From Actinokineospora spheciospongiae (GTDB lineage Bacteria; Actinomycetota; Actinomycetes; Mycobacteriales; Pseudonocardiaceae), in NCBI RefSeq assembly GCF_000564855.1, contig NZ_AYXG01000051.1:62001-126000 (forward strand): DNA of 64,000 nucleotides, read 5' to 3'. Shown here piece after piece: positions 2,524 to 14,197 of the stretch. Positions within the stretch are counted from its first letter, which is position 1, and each line of letters opens with the position of its first letter. Position numbers and translations under genes: made by a program. Below the pieces are notes generated by a model, which was not told the origin of the DNA, made no database searches, and saw only the letters and a list, made by a program, of their open reading frames with translations.

Positions 2524-3489
2524 TCAGGACACCCGCACCAGTGCGCGGTCGGCCAGCAGCGACGCCGCGGGCACGGGGACCGCGGTGGGGTCGGGCAGCG
2601 CGGGGACGGCGGGAACCTCGCTCGCCCCGGCGGCCCCCGGGAGTTGGGGCTGCGCGGGCGGTGCGGCCACCTCGGTGAACGGGATGCCCCGGGGTGGGCG
2701 CGGACCGGTCAGCGCGCCGGAGGGGGACGGCGATCCGGGAGTCGCCGGGCACGGTGCGGCCGTCGTGAGCCCGGCGGGCGCGGTGCGCAGGTCCGCACCG
2801 CCGACGCAGTTGCCGTACCCCTTCGTCGCGGTGGGGAACACCCATCCCACGTCGACCCCGTTCGCGGTGAAGACGTTGTCCAGGACCTGGTCGCCGTTCG
2901 CCGGGATGTCCTGGGTCGCGGTGATCACCAAGCCCGCGTTCGCGTTGTCGGTGATCCGGTTGCGCAGGACCCGGTTGTCGCTGCCGCCGTCGATGCCCAC
3001 ACCGGTGCCCCACCCGCCGTCGGCCTGCTCGGGGGTGGCCACCTGCTGGTTGGCCGCGATCAGGTTGCCCGCGACGACCGAACCCCGCTGCGGCAGCAAC
3101 TTCTCCTGGTGATCGGAACTGGTGGCGAGACCGACCCGGTTGCCCGAGAAGCGGTTGCCGACCACGTACACGTCACCGCTGGCGTTGGTGGCCTCGAAGC
3201 CGATCGCGTTCAACTCGGCGACGTTGTCGCGCACCACGACGCGGCAGGGCTTGCACTGCCCGAGGTAGATCCCCGAGTCGACGCTCCCGGAGGCGTAGGA
3301 ACCCTCGATCACGCCGTTGCGCGCGGAGAACGCGTAGATGCCGTAGAGGCCGTTGCCGGTGGCGGTCACGTGCGAGACCAGGAACGAGTCCAGGAAGCAC
3401 CGGCGGCCCTGAGCTGCGCTGTCGTCCTCACCGGAGCAGCCGGAGAGCGCCACCGCCGCGGCCCACACCCGAAGATCCACACGGAGCAT
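2524..3489 (-). CDS. Lipoprotein with right-handed parallel beta-helix repeats
   Basis: Starting at ATG 3489 the 321-aa product has a short hydrophobic signal with lipobox ALSGC (Cys near residue 18), so it should be a membrane-anchored exported lipoprotein. Residues about 30-215 contain PbH1/NosD-type repeats: GLYGIYAFSARNGVIEGSYA, SGIYLGQCKPCRVVVRDN, GDVYVVGNRFSGNRVGLA and DNRVLRNRITDNANAGLVI. The last 100 residues are Pro/Ala-rich linker. Compared with related actinobacterial beta-helix proteins, the helix appears to lack its N-terminal turns: the sequence goes from the lipobox almost directly to the middle of the fold. It is divergent from the DyP peroxidase gene, from which it is separated by 64 bases. 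Substrate or ligand is unknown. Confidence 0.75.
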   Translation of the reverse strand: MLRVDLRVWAAAVALSGCSGEDDSAAQGRRCFLDSFLVSHVTATGNGLYGIYAFSARNGVIEGSYASGSVDSGIYLGQCKPCRVVVRDNVAELNAIGFEATNASGDVYVVGNRFSGNRVGLATSSDHQEKLLPQRGSVVAGNLIAANQQVATPEQADGGWGTGVGIDGGSDNRVLRNRITDNANAGLVITATQDIPANGDQVLDNVFTANGVDVGWVFPTATKGYGNCVGGADLRTAPAGLTTAAPCPATPGSPSPSGALTGPRPPRGIPFTEVAAPPAQPQLPGAAGASEVPAVPALPDPTAVPVPAASLLADRALVRVS

Positions 3490-3553: not shown

Positions 3554-4688
3554 GTGAGCCGCCGCCCGTCCCGCCGGACGTTCCTCGCGCCGCGGGTGCC
3601 GCGGTGACCACCGGTCTCATCGCCGGGTGCGAAACCCGTTCCGACGAACCGCACGGCAGACCCGCGCTCCCGGCCCCGGTGCCCGCGGCGGGCGAGCACC
3701 AGGCGGGGATCACCGAACCCCGGGACGCCCAACCCAACCTGCTCGTCGTCGTGGCGGACCTCGATGGCACCGCCGCGGTGGGCCCGGTGCTGGCCGAACT
3801 CGGCCGGACCGTCCTCGCGCTCACGGCGGGCACCGACCCGCGACTGCTCGGCCTCGCCCCGGGCGACCTCACCGTGACGATCGGGATCGGCCCCCGGATC
3901 GTCCGGTTGTGCGACCCGGCGCTGCCCGGTGCGACCGACCTGCCACCGTTCTCCCGCGAGGAGATCACCGATCGCGAGCGCGGCGGCGACCTGCTGGTGC
4001 AGGTGTGCGCGAGCGACGCCGTGCTGCTGTCGGCCGCGGCGTCCGCGCTCCTGGACCGAGCGGGTGTCCGCGAACGCTGGCGCCAGTCCGGCAGGCGCGG
4101 CCCGGGTGTCGCCCTGGCCGAGGACCGCACCGCGCCGCGGAACCTGCTGGGGTTCGTCGACGGCGTCGTGGGACCGCACACGCCCGCCGAGCGGCGACGG
4201 GACCTGTGGTTGGCCGGACCGCCGCCGGTGGCCGGTGGCACCATCGCCGTGCTCCGCCGCATGGAACCCGACCTGCGGCGGTTCGCCACTCTGTCCACTC
4301 CGGACCAGGAGGCCGCCATCGGCCGTCACCGCGACACCGGTGTCCCCCTGTCGGGCGGTTCCGCCGCTGCCGGGCCCGACCTCGGCGCCAAGACACCCGA
4401 CGGCAGGTACCTCGTCCCCGCCGACGCCCACGCGCGCCGCGCGGACGCAGGCGCGATCGGTGTCGGCCTCATGCTCCGCCGCTCCTACAGCACCGACGAA
4501 CCCGCGCCCGGCCTGCTGTTCGCCTGCTTCCAGAACGACCTGCGGACCTTCACCACCACCCTCACCCACATGGAGCGCTCCGACGCGCTCCCCCCTTCAC
4601 CAAGACCACGGCGAGCGCGACCTTCCTGGTGCTCCCGGGGTTCGACCGGCAACGGCCGCTCGGCTCCACCCTGTTCCCCGGCGGCTGA
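3554..4688 (+). pseudogene. Tat-exported DyP-type heme peroxidase, two apparent frameshifts
   Basis: Three frames must be joined to give a full DyP peroxidase of about 378 residues. A GTG at 3554 opens a twin-arginine signal (SRRPSRRTFLA). Near 3590 the frame changes to one that reads RAAGAAVTTGLIAGC and the main domain. Near 4590-4600, at a run of six C, it changes again to FTKTTASATFLVLPGFDRQR and the natural end. The GxxDG motif is present (GFVDGVVGPHTP, distal Asp), as are the heme-ligand region PADAHARRA and LMLRRSYS. DyP enzymes oxidise dyes and phenolics with H2O2. Both shifts correspond to loss of one base in G/C runs, so either true decay or sequencing error is possible. Confidence 0.85.
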
Positions 4689-4770
4689 ACCGGGCGCCGA
4701 GAAGCCATCGCCTCCCGCACCGACGCCCGGCTGCCGCCGTGGACCCCGCGCGAACGCCGACGAGGTGACC

Positions 4771-4950
4771 GTGCTGGCCGCCGCGGCGACCCTGGCCCTG
4801 GCCACTGCGGGCACCGCCGCCGACCCGGTCGACACCGCCGACGACCTCCTCGACAACGGCATCGGGCTGCTCAGCGGCAGCGGCAACGGCCTTCTCGGCG
4901 GTGGCGCCGGAGGCGGTGGCCTTCTCGGCAGTGACCTCCTCGACGGCTGA
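4771..4950 (+). CDS. Possible small secreted Gly/Leu-rich protein
   Basis: A frame ending at 4950 has a GTG at 4771 preceded by GAGG (4762-4765). The 59 residues begin with an Ala/Leu-rich export-like segment (LAAAATLALATAGTAA), then a region DPVDTADDLLDNGIGLLSGS followed by glycine-rich GNGLLGGG repeats. It resembles small secreted, surface-active or cell-wall-associated actinobacterial peptides, but lacks the usual N-terminal Lys/Arg before the hydrophobic core. The true N-terminus may therefore lie further upstream or be frameshifted, as in the neighbouring DyP gene. No family is recognised. Confidence 0.4.
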   Translation: MLAAAATLALATAGTAADPVDTADDLLDNGIGLLSGSGNGLLGGGAGGGGLLGSDLLDG

Positions 4951-5044
4951 CCGCGCCACCGGAACCGGGGACTTTCACCCACCACCCCGGAGGGGCCTGC
5001 TGCCCGCAGGGCACCGTTCCCCACGATGCACCCGCCTCACCCTG

Positions 5045-5073
5045 TTGACTCTTGGTGATGACTGGATCACAAT
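5045..5073 (+). promoter_or_regulatory. Predicted sigma70-type promoter of the peptide/P450 locus
   Basis: TTGACT at 5045-5050, a 17-base spacer and CACAAT at 5068-5073 form a good vegetative-type promoter about 30 bases before the peptide start codon. The local sequence is markedly less GC-rich than its surroundings. Confidence 0.55.
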
Positions 5074-5102
5074 CGGTGCACCCCCGAGTGAGGAGCGGTG
5101 CA

Positions 5103-5177
5103 ATGAAACTACTGAAGAAGCTCGTGCGTCGTCGTCGCTTTGCCTCGTCCGGTTACTACGCCTACCCGGCTGTGTGA
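5103..5177 (+). CDS. Short cationic peptide, putative P450-modified RiPP precursor (24 aa)
   Basis: ATG at 5103 follows a strong AGGAG (5091-5095, 7-base spacing) downstream of a good promoter and encodes 24 residues ending at 5177. The first half is a basic leader, MKLLKKLVRRRR. The end, SGYYAYPAV, is rich in tyrosine and would be the core. A gene for a P450 follows 55 bases later. Size, basic leader, aromatic C-terminus and adjacent P450 match the layout of minimal P450-RiPP pairs (atropopeptides such as tryptorubin, biarylitides, cittilin). From memory the KKLV...RF..SGYY portion recalls atropopeptide leaders. The C-terminal YPAV lacks the Trp-rich core of tryptorubin, so the product would be new. 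The function is inference; no protease gene is adjacent. Confidence 0.7.
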   Translation: MKLLKKLVRRRRFASSGYYAYPAV

Positions 5178-5189
5178 TCCGGTTCCACG

Positions 5190-5217
5190 CCCGGGCCGCC
5201 CGCGCGGGCGGCCCGGG
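5190..5217 (+). terminator. Perfect GC palindrome between precursor peptide and P450
   Basis: The 28 bases are a perfect inverted repeat (13-base arms, CCCGGGCCGCCCG and its complement, with only CG between). It starts 12 bases after the peptide stop codon. No U-run follows. The right arm touches the GGGGAGG ribosome binding site (5215-5221) of the P450. It could act as an attenuator/RNA stabiliser giving excess precursor mRNA and could mask P450 translation. Confidence 0.6.
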
Positions 5218-5232
5218 GAGGACACCACCGGG

Positions 5233-6375
5233 GTGAGAGACCCGCGACGCGCGCTGGCCGCCGCGGCGCGGTCTGGCGATGGTGTGGTCGAACTGCACCC
5301 CGGCACGTGGCTCGTCACCGACCCCGCGACCACTGATCGGCTGTTGGCGAGCAGGCACGCGCTGCCTGCCAGGGTCGAGCAGGGGGCGGCCACGACATCT
5401 TGGGGTGTGGACGGCCTGCAACGGTGGATGGCGGCGCGACGAGCCATGCGCCCGTGGCTGACCCCGTCCGCGGCCGCCCGGTTCGCGCCTGCGATCAGCG
5501 CGCACGCCCGGAGCGCCGTCGTGCGGTGGGCGTCCGCGGCGGACATCGACGTGATGAGCGAAGGTTCCGGTCTGCTGTCGACGGTCAACACCCACTACAT
5601 CCTGGGTCGGCCCTCCCCCACCCTCACCCGCCTCGTCGGGGAGGAGCTGTCGGCCGCGGAACGGGCACGCCCGCCGCTGTTGCGCCGACGTCGGCTGCTG
5701 CGCGCCCAGCTCGCCACCCTCACCACCGTCCACGACCACCTGCGCACCGAGGTGCCTCCCGCGGACCTCGTCGCCGCACTGGCCGACGCGGGTCTGGATG
5801 AACGGACCACCGCGTTGGCGGTGCGCACGATGTTGTTGTCGAGCCACCACGTCCCGGCCGCCGCCCTGGCATGGGCGCTGCACGAATTGTCCTCGCGCCC
5901 CGATCTCCAGGAACAGCTGCGCGGGGAAACCACCGCCCAGCGCGACCCCGGTGGCACCGATCTGCCGCTGTGCCGGGCCGTCGTGCGTGAAGCCCTGCGC
6001 CTGCACCCACCGGTCTGGCAACTGCGGCGCGTGCTCGACGCTCCCGTGCTCGACTTCCCGGCAGGTGCCGAATTGCTGTTCAGTCCCCACATCAACCAGC
6101 GGGACCGAGCCGCCCACCCCGATCCCGACCGGTTCGACCCGCACCGCCGCCACCCCGACTCCCACCCGCCCCCGGGGGCCTACCTGCCCTTCGCGCTGGG
6201 GCCCCGCTTCTGCCCCGGGTCCCACCTGGCCATCGCCGAACTCGTCGTCGTCATCGCCACCGTTCTCGACACCCACGTCGTGGTGCCCCACCACGCCCCC
6301 GCACCCGCACGGGGCACCCTGAACGCGCCGCGCGGCCTGAGGTTGACCTTCCTCCCGCACAGGCCACACCGGTGA
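5233..6375 (+). CDS. Cytochrome P450, putative RiPP-crosslinking enzyme
   Basis: GTG at 5233 with GGGGAGG upstream gives a 380-aa soluble bacterial P450, short for the family (usually about 400). Seen: the ExxR motif in VVREALRLHPP (Glu253/Arg256) and the heme loop FALGPRFCPGSHLA with Cys327 as axial ligand. The I-helix is abnormal: where typical P450s have (A/G)GxxT (for example LLAGHETT), this one has LLSSHHVPA (residues 201-209), so both the glycine and the acid/alcohol pair used in O2 activation are missing. Directly downstream of the 24-aa peptide in the same transcript, it probably forms C-C or C-O bonds between aromatic side chains of the peptide. Redox partners are not in the window. 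An upstream in-frame TTG (5140) overlaps the peptide gene and is unlikely. Confidence 0.88.
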   Translation: MRDPRRALAAAARSGDGVVELHPGTWLVTDPATTDRLLASRHALPARVEQGAATTSWGVDGLQRWMAARRAMRPWLTPSAAARFAPAISAHARSAVVRWASAADIDVMSEGSGLLSTVNTHYILGRPSPTLTRLVGEELSAAERARPPLLRRRRLLRAQLATLTTVHDHLRTEVPPADLVAALADAGLDERTTALAVRTMLLSSHHVPAAALAWALHELSSRPDLQEQLRGETTAQRDPGGTDLPLCRAVVREALRLHPPVWQLRRVLDAPVLDFPAGAELLFSPHINQRDRAAHPDPDRFDPHRRHPDSHPPPGAYLPFALGPRFCPGSHLAIAELVVVIATVLDTHVVVPHHAPAPARGTLNAPRGLRLTFLPHRPHR

Positions 6376-6507
6376 GCGTCCACTCGTCCAGAAGGCAATA
6401 CCGACGGCCTCGCCCGGCTGCCTTCGCCCGCTGCGCTGGTGGATCTGATCGCAGCCGCGGCCCCTCGGCAACAGCGGCGGCGAACCCGTACGAGCGTGCT
6501 CCGACGA

Positions 6508-7887
6508 TCACCGCACGACGAGAACGGGAGCGGTGGACAGCCGCGCGGCGAGGGCGGCGTTCGCCTCGGCCTCCCGGGGTGTGCGGCGGCCGAGCCCGCA
6601 GGCCGCGGCGACCGCGTCGACGGGCCGACCGAGGACCTGTTCGACGAGTTCGAGCGCGCGGGCGGAGGCTTCCGGGTGGTGTTCGTCGACCAGGCCCGCG
6701 AAGAGTCGGATGTCACCGCGCAGGCGGCGCAGGACCTGGTAGTCCGACGGTTCGGTCGAGGGCGCGGTCTCGCCGTCGCACAGCGCGACGTGCACCGGCG
6801 GCATCGGGCGTCCGAGGCGGTCGAGGCGCGCGGCCAGGTTGTTGGCGAAGTCGACCAGTGGGCTCAGGTCGCGTGTGTCGGCGATCGGTTTGTGCGCGAG
6901 GTCTCCGTGGCACCAGCCGTGCAGGATGAGCGAGGTCTGCGGGGGCAGGGCGGCGATGACGCCTGCGAGCTGGCGGGTCAACAGCGCGGTCACCAGCGGC
7001 CACACCGCACGGGGCGCCCGGTCGTAGGCGACCATCACCGCGGGGCTCTCCAATTGGATGACGACGTGCTCGTCCTGCCGGTCGGCGAGTCGCTGGACCT
7101 GCTCGACCTCGGCGGTGATCGCGGCGGTGAATGTCGGCAGGTGCTTGATCGCGCCGCGGATCGCGCGCAGCGCCGCGGCCGGGGGCAGCAGGCGCATCAC
7201 CGCGCTGGGGACGCCGAAGGCGAACAGGCTCAGGTCCAGCGGCGCGGGCATCGACACCTGGTGCGGGGGCAGGTGCGCGACACCGAGCCCACGGCGGGCG
7301 GCGATCGCGGCCGGGACCTCCTGCGCGCGTCGCGGGCCGACGTCACCGGGGTGGAGGGTCGCACCGCGGCGCACGCGGTACACCGGCATGCGGGTGTAGT
7401 CGGAGGAGTCGCCGTCGAGCACGAGTTCCAACGGGCCGCGGTCGCGCAGGCCCTCCAGCCACTCGATGATCCAGCGCGGATCGCGGTCACACGGCAGGGT
7501 TGTCAGCTGCGCGGGGGCGGTGTGGTCGAGCAGCCACCGCATGCCCGCCCGGTCCGTCTCCGACAGCGCGGGCGGCAGCGAGCCGACGAAGTGCACGCGG
7601 CGCCGGTCACCCGGTGTGGCGCCCGCGGTCTCCGCCGCACTCCAACCGCGGTGGTCCAGCGGCGACGTGGCCACTCCCCCGCCTGCGCCGGGTCGGGGGG
7701 TTTCTCCCCGGAAACCCCGTCGGTGGTCCGCCGCCACCGGCAGGAGCCGCAGCAGCCGCATGGCGATCCGGGGCCCCCGCCCCGCTGGTCGACGGCGGCG
7801 GGCACGGTCTGCGAGTGCGTGGGGGGCGGCTCCGACCACCGTCGCGAGAACGACTCCACCGAGTCCACTGTAGACTGATTTGCGCAT
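6508..7887 (-). CDS. UROD/MetE-like superfamily protein with N-terminal hydrophobic segment
   Basis: ATG at 7887 follows AGGGAAG (5-base spacing), giving 459 residues. Residues about 1-60 carry a basic N-terminus and a hydrophobic stretch (VYSGLGGVVLATVVGAAPHA) followed by Arg-rich [12 protein letters not shown] domain starting near residue 95 (VHFVGSLPPALSETD) resembles cobalamin-independent methionine synthase-like proteins. LILHGWCHGDLAHKPIADTR, around residue 300, recalls the HxC(Y/H)GD metal/substrate motif of that superfamily. The enzyme activity is unknown; methyl transfer is a family-based guess. It is convergent with the P450 gene (133-base gap), so it is not in the same transcript. 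Whether the N-terminal segment is a true membrane anchor or an intruding fusion is unclear; an alternative start is GTG 7674. Confidence 0.6.
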   Translation of the reverse strand: MRKSVYSGLGGVVLATVVGAAPHALADRARRRRPAGRGPRIAMRLLRLLPVAADHRRGFRGETPRPGAGGGVATSPLDHRGWSAAETAGATPGDRRRVHFVGSLPPALSETDRAGMRWLLDHTAPAQLTTLPCDRDPRWIIEWLEGLRDRGPLELVLDGDSSDYTRMPVYRVRRGATLHPGDVGPRRAQEVPAAIAARRGLGVAHLPPHQVSMPAPLDLSLFAFGVPSAVMRLLPPAAALRAIRGAIKHLPTFTAAITAEVEQVQRLADRQDEHVVIQLESPAVMVAYDRAPRAVWPLVTALLTRQLAGVIAALPPQTSLILHGWCHGDLAHKPIADTRDLSPLVDFANNLAARLDRLGRPMPPVHVALCDGETAPSTEPSDYQVLRRLRGDIRLFAGLVDEHHPEASARALELVEQVLGRPVDAVAAACGLGRRTPREAEANAALAARLSTAPVLVVR

Positions 7888-8437: not shown

Positions 8438-10993
8438 TCACACCGCGTGGCTGACCTGGGTGGTGAGCCACGTGGCCAGGGCTGTCCGGTTGGGCAGCCC
8501 CAGTCGTTCGCGGATGCGGCGCACGTGCGACTCGACGGTGCGCGGGGACAGCCGCAGCACGTCGGCGACCTCGGCGTCCTTGAGGCCTTGGGCCACCAGC
8601 CGGGCCACCTGCCATTCGCGCGCGCTCAGCTTGCCCTGCCGCTCGACCGGGTCGACGCCGTCGGCATCGTCGGCATCGGCTTCGACGGTGCGCAGCAGGC
8701 GCAGTGCCGAGGCGACCGCCTCGTGCGCGCCCATCCGCTCCCCGGCGGCGGTGTGGTGTTCCATCGCGGACTGGCCCAACCCGACCACGCAGCGGGCGGT
8801 CGCCTCGCGCTGCACGCGCCACCACTGCGGCAACCCGCTCACGGTGACGCCGATGGACCGCAGCATCACCGCGACCGCGCCGAACAGCTCAGCCGCCTCC
8901 TGCCAAGCACCCGCCGCCGCGGCGAGGACCGCGGACTGGTGCACCGCCCACGTCCTGCCCCATGTGTCGCCCATTCGCTCCTGCGCCCGCAGGGCGGGCC
9001 GCAGGGCCGCCGCCGCCCGCCCGAGGCGGCCCTGGTGGTACTCGGCCACGGCCAGGCCGATACCCGCCCACGACGACGCCCACACCGCTCCCGCCGCCTC
9101 GGTCCCGCGGCGATGGACCACGGCCGACTCGACGGCGGACGCCGCCCCGCCGAACGATGCCACGAGGACCAGGAACAGCTCGGCCATCGCCTCCTCACCG
9201 GGGGCGTCCTGCTCCCGGGCCGCGGTCACCGCCCGCGTCAGCACCTCGGGCGCGCTGCCCGCCACCACCGCACTGGGGGACAGCCACAGCGAGACCCCGT
9301 GGGCGGTCAACAGCACCGGCGGCTCCGGGCCCCCCACGACCGCGTGCAGCCACCACGCCCGGTCCAGCAGTTCCCGGCCCAGGTCGCACCGGCCCTGGCA
9401 CAGCGCCAGGAAGGCGCCCGAGGCCACCGCCTCCACCTCGACAACGCGGTGTTCCCCGGGGTGGTGGCGGGCAGTGGCGGCGAGGGCGTCGGCGATCTGC
9501 TCACGGTCCTCGCGGAGCCGCCCGGCCCAGATCCCCGCCCGGGTGCGGGCCCGATCGACCACCAGGCGCAGCCCGTCCCACACGGTGTCCGGGCTCGCCA
9601 GCAGCCTGCCCAGTGCCGCGGCCGCGTTCGGCCTGTTGGCGGTGAGGGTTTTGAGGACGTCCTCCTCGCGCGGGCTGTACCAGGTGTTCGCGGCACAGGC
9701 GGCCTGGGCGAGGTAGACGGCGGCGTGCGCGTCTCGAATCTGCTCGCGGGGGGTGCCCTCGGGCACCAGGGCCACGCCGTAGGCGCGGACCTGCTCCAGC
9801 ATCCGCAGCCGCACCTGCCCGTGCCGCTGTTCGCGCACGAGCACCGATCGGTGCAGCAGTCGCCCGATCAGCGCGGTCATCCGGTCGCGGTCGACGCCGA
9901 GGGCACAGCCGAGGTCGTGGGCCTCCTCGGGGGAGAAGCACCCGGAGAACTGCGACAGCGTGGCCCACGTCGCGACCTCATCGGGGATGAGCAGCTCCCG
10001 CGCCCAGTCCACGACCGCCCGCAGGGACCGGTGGTGGGCTCGGTCCTCGCGCTCCTCGGTCCCCCGCAGTGCCAATGGGTCCTCGCGCAGCCTGCGCACG
10101 AGCTGGTCGAGGTTCTGGCCCTCCAGGTTGGCCGCGGCGAGCACGATGGCCAGCGGCAGCCCGTCGAGCAACCGGCACAGCTCGCGCACGGCGTCGTCGT
10201 GCGGGTCGATGTCCACGTCGTGGTCCGCGGCCAGGTGCGCCAGCAGCCGCACCGAGTCCGGCACCGCACCGGAGCCGTCGAGGCTGTCGGTGTCCAGCGT
10301 GGGCACCACCAGTGGGCGCTCCCCGCTCAGCAACAGGTGGTGGGTGCTGGTGGCCAGCACCCGCACCCCGTCCCCGGCGGCCAGCAGCCGCGGCAGGAGC
10401 GCGCGCACCGCGCCGATGACGTGCTCGCAGTTGTCCAGGACCAGCAGCACCCGCCGCCCGGCCAACCGGTGCGACAGCGCCGCCTCGACGCCCGCGTCGT
10501 CGGTGTTGTCCGGCACCCGCAGCGCGACCGACAACCGCGCCAGCACCCTGGCCCGCACCCGCGCCGGGTCCTCCCCCGGCCCGGCGCGCTCGACGTCGGC
10601 CAGGCCGACCAGGACCACGCCGTCCGGGTGCGTGCCCGCGTCGGCCACCCGGTGCGCCAAGCGCACCGCCAAGCGGGTCTTGCCGACACCTCCGGGACCG
10701 ACCAGCGTCACCAACCGCCGAGTCGCCAGCAACTCCAGCCCCTGGGCCACCTGCTCAGCACGCCCCACGAACACGTCCAGCTCCGGGGGCAGCGCCCCGC
10801 GCCCGCCGTCCGGCAGGCAGGCCACCGACGGCCGGGGTGAGCCGAGTGCGCCACCCGGCCGCGGCCGCTCGTGGTCCGACGGCGGGCCCGTCACCGGCGG
10901 CTCATCGCGTTGTCGTCCGTCCGCTCCGCACGTCATCGCCAACCGACACCTCCGGCTCCCGACAGGAGCGGCCGAACTACCGACCGTAGCCAT
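8438..10993 (-). CDS. LuxR-family regulator with STAND-type ATPase domain
   Basis: The 851-aa product has a P-loop near residue 80-90 (LVGPGGVGKTRLAVRLAHRV), a Walker-B-like LLVLDNCEHV, a GLPLAIVLAAANL motif of NB-ARC/STAND ATPases and a long helical middle region. The LuxR-type DNA-binding domain is at the very end (LSAREWQVARLVAQGLKDAE, then LSPRTVESHVRRIRERL). Such proteins switch on ligand binding and ATP hydrolysis; the target genes are unknown. Start chosen at ATG 10993, 5 bases after GAGG; GTG 10999 and ATG 10936 are alternatives. About 45 N-terminal residues before LPPELDVFVGRA are disordered. The closest paralogue in the window is the 744-aa protein at 59470. Confidence 0.88.
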   Translation of the reverse strand: MATVGSSAAPVGSRRCRLAMTCGADGRQRDEPPVTGPPSDHERPRPGGALGSPRPSVACLPDGGRGALPPELDVFVGRAEQVAQGLELLATRRLVTLVGPGGVGKTRLAVRLAHRVADAGTHPDGVVLVGLADVERAGPGEDPARVRARVLARLSVALRVPDNTDDAGVEAALSHRLAGRRVLLVLDNCEHVIGAVRALLPRLLAAGDGVRVLATSTHHLLLSGERPLVVPTLDTDSLDGSGAVPDSVRLLAHLAADHDVDIDPHDDAVRELCRLLDGLPLAIVLAAANLEGQNLDQLVRRLREDPLALRGTEEREDRAHHRSLRAVVDWARELLIPDEVATWATLSQFSGCFSPEEAHDLGCALGVDRDRMTALIGRLLHRSVLVREQRHGQVRLRMLEQVRAYGVALVPEGTPREQIRDAHAAVYLAQAACAANTWYSPREEDVLKTLTANRPNAAAALGRLLASPDTVWDGLRLVVDRARTRAGIWAGRLREDREQIADALAATARHHPGEHRVVEVEAVASGAFLALCQGRCDLGRELLDRAWWLHAVVGGPEPPVLLTAHGVSLWLSPSAVVAGSAPEVLTRAVTAAREQDAPGEEAMAELFLVLVASFGGAASAVESAVVHRRGTEAAGAVWASSWAGIGLAVAEYHQGRLGRAAAALRPALRAQERMGDTWGRTWAVHQSAVLAAAAGAWQEAAELFGAVAVMLRSIGVTVSGLPQWWRVQREATARCVVGLGQSAMEHHTAAGERMGAHEAVASALRLLRTVEADADDADGVDPVERQGKLSAREWQVARLVAQGLKDAEVADVLRLSPRTVESHVRRIRERLGLPNRTALATWLTTQVSHAV

Positions 10994-11542
10994 CGCCACC
11001 TCGAAATCACACGTCCCACTCAGACCCGAACAAATCTCTCAACCGCCGTGCAACCTGCAACAGCGTTTCATGGCAGTGCATTCTGGTGACGTCGCCGAGT
11101 ATAGGCAGATGGTGGTCTCATTGGACAGATCACTGTGGACGGTCAGCAGAGCGAGCTTGGACGATCACAGAAAGTGACACTTGGTCTGACGTCAACGACA
11201 CAGCAAGCGAAGACCCACCAGCCGCTTTCATGGGCACAAAGCCAAGGCAGGCAAGGGAACCGATCCTTCGCAGAGGACAGTCACACCTCTGGCCCCACGC
11301 CCGCCACCCAGGTGCCGCTGAACACGACGAGGCCAGGTTCACCCTTTCGCTTCAGCCAAATCCCCAACCGGTAGGGAAGTGGACCATGTCCAGGTGTGTC
11401 ACCAGCGCGCAGGGTCCCCGATAGGACAGTGTGCCGCGATCGAGATCGAGCAGGCCCGCCCGATGCGGTGGCGTCCCAGCCCAACAGTCGGACGACGGTG
11501 TTCCCGCCCCGGTTTCCGCAGGACCTGCGATGCCGGTGCTGA
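10994..11542. other. Intergenic region with decayed sequence
   Basis: No intact gene is seen. The segment 10994-11280 has lower GC and no RBS-supported ORF. Between 11352 and 11546 the minus strand has a short protein-like stretch (LLDLDRGTLSYRGPCALVTH) in a different frame from the transposase fragment beyond it. It is probably debris from an insertion or deletion event. Confidence 0.35.
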
Positions 11543-12068: not shown

Positions 12069-13322
12069 TCACCTCACCGAAGCATTCCCCCACCGCACCA
12101 CTCGCATCCCGGCTTCCCGGGCGGCCTCGACCGGCACAACGCACCGCGTGTCGACCAGTACCGGCAGCGCCATCGTCGGCTTCAGCTCCGCCCACGACAG
12201 CGCACCGAACTCCGGCCACTCGGTCAGCACCACCGCCGCCACCGCCCCCTCCACCGCGACCTCCGCCGACTCCACCACCTCAACCCCGTCAACCGCCCCA
12301 CGCACACACGGGTCGTAAGCACGGACCACCGCCCCGGCGGCCACCAACCGCTCCACCACCCGCAGTGCGGGCGAATCCCGCAGGTCATCAGTTCCGGCCT
12401 TGAACGTCAGGCCCAGCACGCCGACCCGCGCCCCGCGCAGCGGACCGGTTTCGGCCATGACCCGCCGCACCACCCGATCCGCTTGCCGGTCGTTGGTCGA
12501 CATCGTGGCCGTCAGCAGTGGGAAGTCCACGCCCGCCGCCTCCGCCGCGGCGGCCAGGGCGCGGGTGTCCTTGGGGAAGCACGAGCCGCCCCAGCCGGGG
12601 CCGGGGCGCAGGAAGTCGGGGCCGATGCGGGTGTCGGAGCCGATGCCCTCGGTCACCGCGGCGACGTCGGCGTCGAAGACCTCGCAGAGTTCGGCCAGGG
12701 AGTTGGCGTAGGAGAGCTTCATCGCCAGGAAGCAGTTCGCCGCGTACTTGACCAGTTCCGCCGTGGTCGTGTCGGTGACGATCGCGGGGGCCTCCGGGTA
12801 CAGGGCGAGCACGGCGCGCGCGTCCTCCGGCTGGGTGGCGCCGACGACGATGCGTTGCGGGTGCAGGAAGTCCGCCACCGTGTGGCCCTCGCGGAGGAAT
12901 TCCGGGTTCGACACGAGCTCGATCCCGGTCTCCCGGGACAGTGCTGCCGCCGTTCCCGGCGGGACCGTGGACTTGACCACCACCCGGCAGTCGCGGGGGC
13001 CGATCTCGGCCAGCACCGAGCGGACCGCTCCCAGTTCGGCGGCGCCGTCGGGGCCGGAGGGGGTGGGGACGCACAGGAACACGAACCCGGCTTCGGTGAA
13101 GGCTTCCGCGTTGGCGCCGGTGAAGCACAGCGCGCCGGAGCGCAGGCCGTCGGAGACCAGGTCGGGCAGGTCGGGTTCGTGGGCGGTGACCTCGCCGCGG
13201 CGCAGGGCGCTGACGCGGTCCGCGTCGCGGTCCGCGCACACCACCCGGTGGCCCAGGGCGGCGAAGCAGGCCGCCGTGGTCAGTCCGACGTAGCCCGCGC
13301 CGATGACGCCGATCGCGGCCAT
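12069..13322 (-). CDS. UDP-glucose 6-dehydrogenase family
   Basis: ATG 13322 has an AGGAG 8 bases upstream; the product is 417 aa, normal for bacterial UDP-glucose/GDP-mannose dehydrogenases. Seen: N-terminal Rossmann motif GVIGAGYVGLTTAACFAALG, the LCVPTPSGPDG region, STVPPGT, NPEFLREG, central helix with AELVKYAANCFLAMKLSYAN, and the catalytic cysteine Cys248 in GPGWGGSCFPKD. It should oxidise UDP-glucose to UDP-glucuronate with two NAD+. It is the last gene of a five-gene minus-strand run; its start overlaps the end of the GT9 gene by 43 bases. UDP-glucuronate would be the substrate of the UDP-xylose-synthase-like epimerase at the head of the run, so the two together imply UDP-GlcA/UDP-xylose supply. 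Confidence 0.92.
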   Translation of the reverse strand: MAAIGVIGAGYVGLTTAACFAALGHRVVCADRDADRVSALRRGEVTAHEPDLPDLVSDGLRSGALCFTGANAEAFTEAGFVFLCVPTPSGPDGAAELGAVRSVLAEIGPRDCRVVVKSTVPPGTAAALSRETGIELVSNPEFLREGHTVADFLHPQRIVVGATQPEDARAVLALYPEAPAIVTDTTTAELVKYAANCFLAMKLSYANSLAELCEVFDADVAAVTEGIGSDTRIGPDFLRPGPGWGGSCFPKDTRALAAAAEAAGVDFPLLTATMSTNDRQADRVVRRVMAETGPLRGARVGVLGLTFKAGTDDLRDSPALRVVERLVAAGAVVRAYDPCVRGAVDGVEVVESAEVAVEGAVAAVVLTEWPEFGALSWAELKPTMALPVLVDTRCVVPVEAAREAGMRVVRWGNASVR

Positions 13323-14197
13323 CCCGTCGCTCCTCTCGATCGTCCGGCCGGTTGCCCGGCCACCAGGTCGCGCACCGCGCCGAGCACTTCGGGCACGGTG
13401 ATCCGCAGCAGGCCCGGGTCGGGTGCCGCGGCGAAGGTGTCGCCGGTGCCGCCGTGCCAGAGCACCCGGTGCGGGCCGGACCTCGGTCCCCACCGGGCGG
13501 GCGACACCGGGCCGAACAGCAGCACCGAGGGCGTGCCGAACGCCGTGGCGACGTGCGCGACCCCGGTGTCCCCGCACACCACGACCCGAGCCCCGGCGAC
13601 CAGGTCGAGCAGCGCGCCCAACCCGCCTACCTGGGTGCGCGCGGCGCCGACCGCCGCCACCAGGTCCGCCTCGTCGGGGCTGCCGGTGACCACCACGTCC
13701 GGGCCGAGCTCCCCGGCCAGTTCGGCGTACCGGTCGGCGGGCCAGCGGCGGGAGCCGTGGCTGGCGCCGGGGTGCACCACGATCGCGCCGTTGCGCTCCC
13801 CGGCGGGCAACCGCAGGTCGTCGGGGTCGGCGGGGATGCCGTGGTGCGCCAGCAGGGAGCACCAGCGCAGCACCTCGTGCTGCTCGTCGTTCCACGGGTG
13901 CTCCGGGCCGTGGGTGATCAGCTCGCCGGGGTGGGTGGCGCGGAGCAGGTCGACGCTCTGCGGGCCGCGCCCGTGCAGGTTGATCGCCAGGTCGGGTTCG
14001 GCGTACTCGATCGGCACCAGGCCCGCCGTGGGCAGCAGCCGGTCGACGGCGTCGACCCGGTCCACCACCTCCGCCAGCCACCGCGGGGCGGCCAGGGTGA
14101 TCTCCGCGTCCGGGTGGGCCCGGCGGACGGCGCGCAGCGCGGGGACCGCGGTGAGCAGGTCGCCCAGGCCCAGCGCGCGCAGGATCAGGATGCGCAC
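13280..14197 (-). CDS. Glycosyltransferase family 9 (heptosyltransferase-like)
   Basis: GTG 14197 starts a 305-aa protein with the GT-B layout of family 9: N-terminal ILILRALGLGDLLTAVPALR, a central VVHPGASHGSRRWPADRYAE phosphate-binding segment and VVCGDTGVAHVATAFGTPSV in the C-terminal nucleotide-sugar domain. Family 9 enzymes transfer heptose or related sugars in the cytoplasm. Actinobacteria lack lipopolysaccharide, so the acceptor is probably a secondary-metabolite or cell-wall glycan. The start overlaps the end of the GT2 gene by 13 bases. No heptose biosynthesis genes are in the window, so the donor sugar is uncertain; UDP-linked sugars from the neighbouring genes are an alternative. 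Confidence 0.85.
   Translation of the reverse strand: MRILILRALGLGDLLTAVPALRAVRRAHPDAEITLAAPRWLAEVVDRVDAVDRLLPTAGLVPIEYAEPDLAINLHGRGPQSVDLLRATHPGELITHGPEHPWNDEQHEVLRWCSLLAHHGIPADPDDLRLPAGERNGAIVVHPGASHGSRRWPADRYAELAGELGPDVVVTGSPDEADLVAAVGAARTQVGGLGALLDLVAGARVVVCGDTGVAHVATAFGTPSVLLFGPVSPARWGPRSGPHRVLWHGGTGDTFAAAPDPGLLRITVPEVLGAVRDLVAGQPAGRSRGATGWPRSASSARATSD

Follow-up and report, generated by a model that had tools for sequence, protein, structure and literature searches.

A candidate two-gene P450-modified RiPP locus with a nearly fixed GYYAYPAV-type core in Pseudonocardiaceae

Does a 24-codon gene in front of a cytochrome P450 gene in Actinokineospora spheciospongiae encode the substrate of that enzyme? 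Few natural-product pathways are as small as those of P450-modified RiPPs, whose precursor genes annotation easily overlooks. We investigated this gene pair in the window (the whole 64,000-nt stretch of DNA that was analysed, carried by a 7.5-Mb genome) and consider it highly probable that the locus is a minimal two-gene P450-modified RiPP, consisting of a precursor and a cross-linking P450. The gene pair, its conservation and co-occurrence, the kinship of the P450 and a conserved promoter-like box were observed and form the basis of this reading, from which we infer the chemistry.

A conserved peptide–P450 gene pair

Read along the plus strand, positions 5045-6375 start with a promoter-like box and a ribosome site, continue with a 24-codon gene followed by a hairpin, and end with an intact P450 gene (Table 1). 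The initial annotation had described a promoter, ribosome-binding site, 24-residue basic-leader peptide, hairpin and P450 as one self-contained locus, and all of these elements were located there; the sole adjustment concerned the P450 start, now placed at the likely GTG 5233. A TTGAC box starts 56-64 nt upstream of the peptide start codon in 11/11 family loci; when this upstream DNA was shuffled 2000 times, the box appeared in at most 2/11 loci, a comparison that ignores kinship among the loci. Just 5′ of the peptide locus is a DyP-type peroxidase frame, in which the Pfam match stops short of the frame end and a DyP-like tail seems, by eye, to lie in another frame; in the comparison of 11 neighbourhoods, no DyP-type peroxidase gene was common with the other peptide loci.

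Table 1 Features of the locus and its surroundings (positions in the 64,000-nt window) and further peptide–P450 pairs (locus:positions).
Feature	Position	Strand	Basis or remark
Right-handed beta-helix (NosD-like) protein	2524-3300	-	
DyP-type peroxidase frame	3562-4947	+	
Sigma-70-like promoter TTGACT-17-CACAAT	5045..5073	+	1 site in 4900-6600 vs mean 0.0 in shuffles
Shine-Dalgarno GAGGAG of peptide gene	5090-5095	+	sequence reading; 7 nt before ATG
Precursor peptide gene MKLLKKLVRRRRFASSGYYAYPAV, 24 aa	5103..5177	+	ATG 5103, TGA 5175-5177; conserved 11/11
Hairpin, 12-bp G+C-rich stem, arms 5190-5201/5206-5217	5190..5217	+	folding vs shuffles and alignment
P450 ribosome site GGGGAGGA	5215-5222	+	touched by 3′ end of hairpin
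Cytochrome P450, 380 aa, probable peptide cross-linking enzyme	5233..6375	+	Pfam p450 4e-29; GTG 5233 the likely start
Large LuxR-type regulator with NB-ARC/AAA ATPase part	8438-10999	-	
UDP-glucose/GDP-mannose dehydrogenase	12069-14081	-	
Pairs with peptide C-termini YSYWPYHHR, YIYWPYHTR (YxYWPY cores)	L027:9534-11029, L028:1278-2741		
Pairs with peptide C-termini RPYPTWT, RPYTSWS (RPYxxW cores)	L030:9547-10936, L032:9554-10936		
Pair with peptide C-terminus GYYWG	L036:9832-11260		
Pair with peptide C-terminus YGAYLPYYG	L043:9375-11020		
Further small aromatic peptide–P450 pairs	L045:7240-8723, L070:9177-10585		

A P450 search at E ≤ 1e-60 returned 11/390 Pseudonocardiaceae genomes, from 4/46 genera. 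The core DNA pattern GGNTAYTAYKCNTAYCCNNCNGTNTRA, which was built without P450 sequence and is hence independent of the P450 search, also matched 11/390 Pseudonocardiaceae genomes, with 0 control matches, and the two sets were the identical 11 genomes. The chance of identical sets, if the searches were independent, is ~1e-21, a value too strong as a probability because the genomes share ancestry. The initial annotation had regarded absence of the 24-aa ORF beside P450 homologues in other genomes as evidence against its reading; the peptide gene was found directly upstream of the P450 and in the same order in 11/11 family genomes. In class-wide samples, the P450 profile matched 1/394 genomes and the core pattern 1/296, both being the window's own genome. 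Seven family members are in named genomes, taken to be among the same 11, and the peptide is present in 7/7: Saccharothrix algeriensis, S. yanglingensis, S. luteola, Saccharothrix sp. S26, Goodfellowiella coeruleoviolacea, Actinokineospora fastidiosa and Allokutzneria sp. NRRL B-24872.

We compared the neighbourhoods of the 11 loci (the window's first 16.5 kb, and 18-21 kb for each other locus) through ORF clusters defined by 60 aa or more, 75 bits and 35% identity. Apart from the P450 and antisense shadow frames, no gene recurred in more than 3/11 neighbourhoods, and the clusters that reached 3 loci were mostly from Saccharothrix relatives. The conserved locus therefore consists of the two genes alone. 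Neither a protease nor a transporter nor a second enzyme accompanies the pair in these 11 neighbourhoods.

The 11 precursors, 21-24 aa in length, have a common N-terminus (M/V-K/R-[LF]-[LV]), R9-R10 within a run of two to four Arg (positions 9-12) in every member, a leader net charge of +5 to +8, and the C-terminal core G-Y-Y-[A/S]-Y-P-[A/S/P]-V. Residues G17, Y18, Y19, Y21, P22 and V24 are invariant (11/11), and Trp is absent from 11/11. The window precursor would divide into the basic leader MKLLKKLVRRRRFASS and the core GYYAYPAV. Mean pairwise identity was 91% in the core vs 57% in the leader. Among the nine gapless members, 13/6/17 of 24 columns vary at the first, second and third codon positions, and 2/0/3 in the last 8 codons, where the second position is unchanged; this pattern indicates a selected coding sequence. 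A variable aromatic core had been expected at the outset, whereas the core proved nearly fixed across four genera. In this respect it differs from many RiPPs, whose cores are varied, and this counts against the RiPP reading.

The P450 and its relatives

AlphaFold modelling of the window P450 returned a P450 fold (pLDDT 84.5, pTM 0.87), and the 50 nearest solved structures listed were general P450s with 18-26% identity (CYP46A1, CYP184A1, CYP175A1 and others). Nine of the 10 related family P450s are merely 52-58% identical to the window P450. The window P450 is 74% identical to that of L009 (Saccharothrix, taken as S. algeriensis) vs 52% to that of L018 from its own genus (taken as A. fastidiosa), values that suggest the gene moved between genera.

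The search for relatives found 99, of which 80 loci were kept: 7 from the family and 73 others (37 in a 57-protein set, 36 left out). This set comprised 29 peptide-linked P450s and 28 without a found peptide. In a careful tree of 45/57 proteins, leaving out long branches, near-copies and L006-L008, 25 peptide-linked P450s, so labelled after the peptides had been seen, split with a branch support of 100/99 from 20 for which no peptide was found, including 4 encoded in the window's own genome. Grouping with ordinary oxidases, which the initial annotation had named as a sign against its proposal, thus did not occur. A second tree (40/57 proteins, this time including three further P450s from the window's own genome, plus one biarylitide P450) separated 23 peptide-linked P450s from 18 others, again at 100/99. 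The 11 family P450s formed a separate clade in both trees (100/100 in the careful tree, 99/100 in the second). Long branches lead to L036 and to the atropopeptide rows; in a quick tree the long branch of the atropopeptide P450s came out next to the family, with weak support, and this placement was not relied on. A rule based on upstream ORFs, drawn up with the peptides already known and applied to both sides of the tree, marked 25/29 P450s on the peptide side vs 3/28 on the other, and its 4 misses (L017, L063, L068 and L045) do have peptides.

The search also uncovered further peptide–P450 pairs with other cores. Farther relatives of the P450 (25-34% identity) directly follow short basic peptides with other aromatic C-termini, and the eight L-numbered pairs in Table 1 look like RiPP loci. 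Nocardia peptides beside related P450s are AYLYYTCDQWPPVN and AYLYNDCVQYPPIVK, and AYLYxxCxQ[WY]PP is another aromatic core among these pairs. A widespread pair has a MIAKLLGKLSFTRHYGAYG... peptide with a variable tail directly 5′ of a P450 of the same clan. Peptides of the YGAYG type were present in 28/46 loci scanned (Streptomyces, Kitasatospora), including L049, L050, L053, L054, L055, L061, L063, L066 and L068, and the string YGAYG had no match in the literature found on such systems.

We then compared the I-helix, in which AGxET(T) is usual. The window P450 has SSHHVP where AGHETT is usual, and the family carries SSHHVP (6/11), SGHHVP (3/11), AGHHVP (1/11) or SSHNVP (1/11). The [DE]-T pair was present in 0/11 family and 0/2 atropopeptide P450s, and in 22/28 P450s without a found peptide. 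It is missing in 9/16 other peptide-linked P450s and kept in 7/16, so that its loss is no marker of cross-linking as such. Proline at window residue 208 occurs in 27/29 peptide-linked P450s vs 0/28 others, the two exceptions being both atropopeptide rows.

The model of ApyO, a RiPP P450, was the top NCBIfam model for the three family members scanned (the window, L009 and L018), as well as for L027, L030 and one atropopeptide P450; it was not the top model for L055 or L036, and ranked second or third for the 4 ordinary P450s scanned. Ordinary P450s outscored the family in bits (126-158 vs 83-107), all far under the cut-off of 525, and the match is therefore informative for rank only.

Comparison with described peptide–P450 systems

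Atropopeptides (tryptorubin) are described as products of a precursor and one P450, defined by a KSLK-type leader motif (KSLK, RSLK, ESLK, KSRK, KPLK, PSLK) and a Trp at core position 2 (PMC11450843). The family resembles them in having a short basic-leader precursor with an aromatic C-terminal core directly 5′ of one P450 (PMC11450843, PMC12352619), in the absence of a dedicated protease, as in the first described atropopeptide loci, and in the position of its P450s, which fall on the same side of the tree as the two atropopeptide P450s included. The two atropopeptide loci that we found by core pattern carry a KSLK leader and AWYIWY or AWYLWY cores, whereas a KSLK-type motif occurs in 0/11 family precursors, and the core is the Trp-free GYYAYPAV rather than xWxxWx. 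Their P450s scored weakly with the family profile (49-59 bits), and the family P450s form their own clade, in a comparison with just two atropopeptide P450s on a long branch. Membership in the atropopeptides was rejected on the missing KSLK-type motif and Trp2 and the separate P450 clade.

Biarylitides (BytA/BytO) likewise involve a P450 that acts on a tiny ribosomal peptide, and their Y-x-Y or Y-x-H tripeptide bridge is a plausible analogue of YAY; the biarylitide precursor is given as 5 residues, compared with 21-24 aa here (PMC13417212). A biarylitide pattern with a fixed upstream GG matched 0/150 Streptomyces genomes, the pattern being too strict, and a biarylitide search of 25 Saccharothrix-group genomes found one MRYVH locus (inferred to be from S. 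variisporea). The P450 of this locus scored 10.5 bits with the family profile and, unlike the family, grouped with the ordinary P450s L006-L008 of the window's genome (100/100; one P450 compared). We rejected biarylitide membership, since precursor length and P450 kinship both fail.

ApyO, the P450 of the aminopyruvatide pathway, links the two Tyr residues of a YLY motif to each other (PMC13192836). The family shares the Tyr-x-Tyr motif, which in the ApyO substrate is preceded by a conserved Arg/Lys (PMC13192836). In contrast to ApyO, the window P450 scored 101 bits against a model cut-off of 525; in contrast to aminopyruvatides as described there, the C-terminal residue is Val in 11/11, not Asp (PMC13192836), and the ORF-cluster comparison of 11 loci revealed no conserved partner gene such as MNIO. 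Aminopyruvatide membership was rejected on the score, the C-terminal Val and the lack of a recurrent partner gene.

The combination of a short aromatic peptide and one P450 is also that of the 'cyptides', proposed as a superfamily of peptides cross-linked by P450s (PMC12299652), and the locus has the general feature of P450-modified RiPPs: a short, conserved aromatic precursor linked to a single P450. One 2023-2024 mining study of P450-RiPPs sorted 1057 clusters into 11 categories (PMC12299652). The products named in that source, mostly given without core sequences, do not include the GYYAYPAV core. Literature searches for YYAYP, YAYPAV, GYYAYPAV and this kind of system found no report, in agreement with the initial annotation, to which the Tyr-Pro-Ala-Val core was not familiar; an earlier listing in mining supplements is possible. 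Of the atropopeptide/biarylitide-type layout that it had proposed, the two-gene precursor/P450 pair stood, and assignment to either class by its defining features did not. Judged by sequence, this is a separate precursor/P450 family within the P450-modified RiPPs, neither atropopeptide nor biarylitide.

Proposed pathway and alternative explanations

In the pathway that we propose, the precursor and P450 genes would share one common transcript, on which the hairpin 3′ of the precursor gene probably keeps the precursor in excess over the enzyme. The basic, probably helical leader, with its two to four Arg at positions 9-12, would dock on the P450 and thread the C-terminal GYYAYPAV core to the heme, by analogy with tryptorubin and ApyO (PMC11450843, PMC13192836). 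The P450, with its SSHHVP I-helix, would then take hydrogen atoms from Tyr side chains and couple the Tyr residues. A Tyr19-Tyr21 bridge across the YAY tripeptide would be the likeliest single link (-2 Da), and a second link to Tyr18 may follow (-4 Da), after which the leader would be trimmed by general peptidases. The product is thus likely a Tyr-Tyr cross-linked YYAYPAV peptide of M-2 or M-4 Da.

The P450 may instead modify the peptide without forming a ring, by hydroxylating Tyr, by oxidising Pro or Val, or by an oxidative decarboxylation at the C-terminus. P450s of RiPP pathways are described as hydroxylating, epoxidising and carboxylating as well (PMC13192836), the biarylitide-related RufO nitrates Tyr (PMC13417212), and P22 and V24 show the same invariance as the Tyr residues. 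Coupling is the better fit to the three invariant Tyr in YYxY, to the kinship with P450s of aromatic-core peptides and to the lost acid-threonine pair of the I-helix, and we regard a ring-free product as unlikely.

Between the two genes, the 63 nt from the window's peptide stop formed a fold bettered by 1/200 shuffles (z -3.4). The same 63-nt region folded better than dinucleotide shuffles in 10/11 loci (z -1.6 to -5.1; -2.3 or lower in 8/11), and the L018 spacer folded no better than shuffles (z +0.2; 110/200 shuffles as good). In an alignment of 9/11 loci, which left out L015 and L017 as having no spacer between the genes, stem pairing was found in 90% of cells vs 36-48% in slid registers. 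Covariation among these 9 loci was modest: its score was equalled by 14/500 shuffles, and two of the five measures taken did not rise above shuffles, the number of pairs changed on both sides (2) being reached by 380/500 and the observed pair types by 456/500. L015 and L017, both from Allokutzneria-group genomes, have a TGATGA in which the stop codon of the peptide gene and the start of the P450 gene overlap, and their hairpin lies inside the P450 start; with this arrangement, the two genes there look translationally coupled.

These features would also suit a short ORF that serves as a regulatory leader (a uORF or stalling peptide) controlling the hairpin, in which case the P450 would have an unrelated small molecule as its substrate. 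In favour are the place of the hairpin, between the two genes with its 3′ arm touching the P450 ribosome site, and the stop/start overlap in L015 and L017; fixed C-termini are a trait of stalling leaders too. That account fits poorly with the related P450s, whose neighbouring peptides combine a basic leader of the same type with aromatic cores that are unrelated, since a core that switches with the P450 clade is not expected of it. In addition, two related loci are atropopeptides, a class in which the peptide is described as the substrate (PMC11450843), L015 and L017 have no spacer, and that of L018 shows no fold beyond shuffles; we therefore hold a regulatory leader to be quite improbable. 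That a short ORF lies by chance next to an ordinary P450 for small molecules, conceivable where 24-aa ORFs are common (24 ORFs of at least 20 aa overlap 4700-6700), is refuted to the point of being exceedingly improbable by the 11/11 conservation, the matching 11-genome sets among 390 with 0 control matches, and the coding-type codon variation.

A precursor modified by its neighbouring P450 remains our preferred reading, and the gene pair offers a compact system, with a 1.3-kb fragment, named type strains and specific expected masses. The I-helix proline may help recognise peptide-linked P450s. A core so nearly fixed prompts the question of the peptide's purpose. Tentatively, and with more doubt than confidence, we suggest that the family may represent an unreported class of P450-made cyclic peptides, in which a GYYAYPAV-type core stays fixed in four genera as the enzyme drifts to about half identity. 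Such a pattern would point to a single conserved target or signalling role, not a varied antibiotic repertoire, and to a P450 whose acid- and threonine-free, proline-bearing I-helix (SSHHVP) may have given up oxygen insertion for radical Tyr-Tyr coupling, possibly forming two rings in YYAY.
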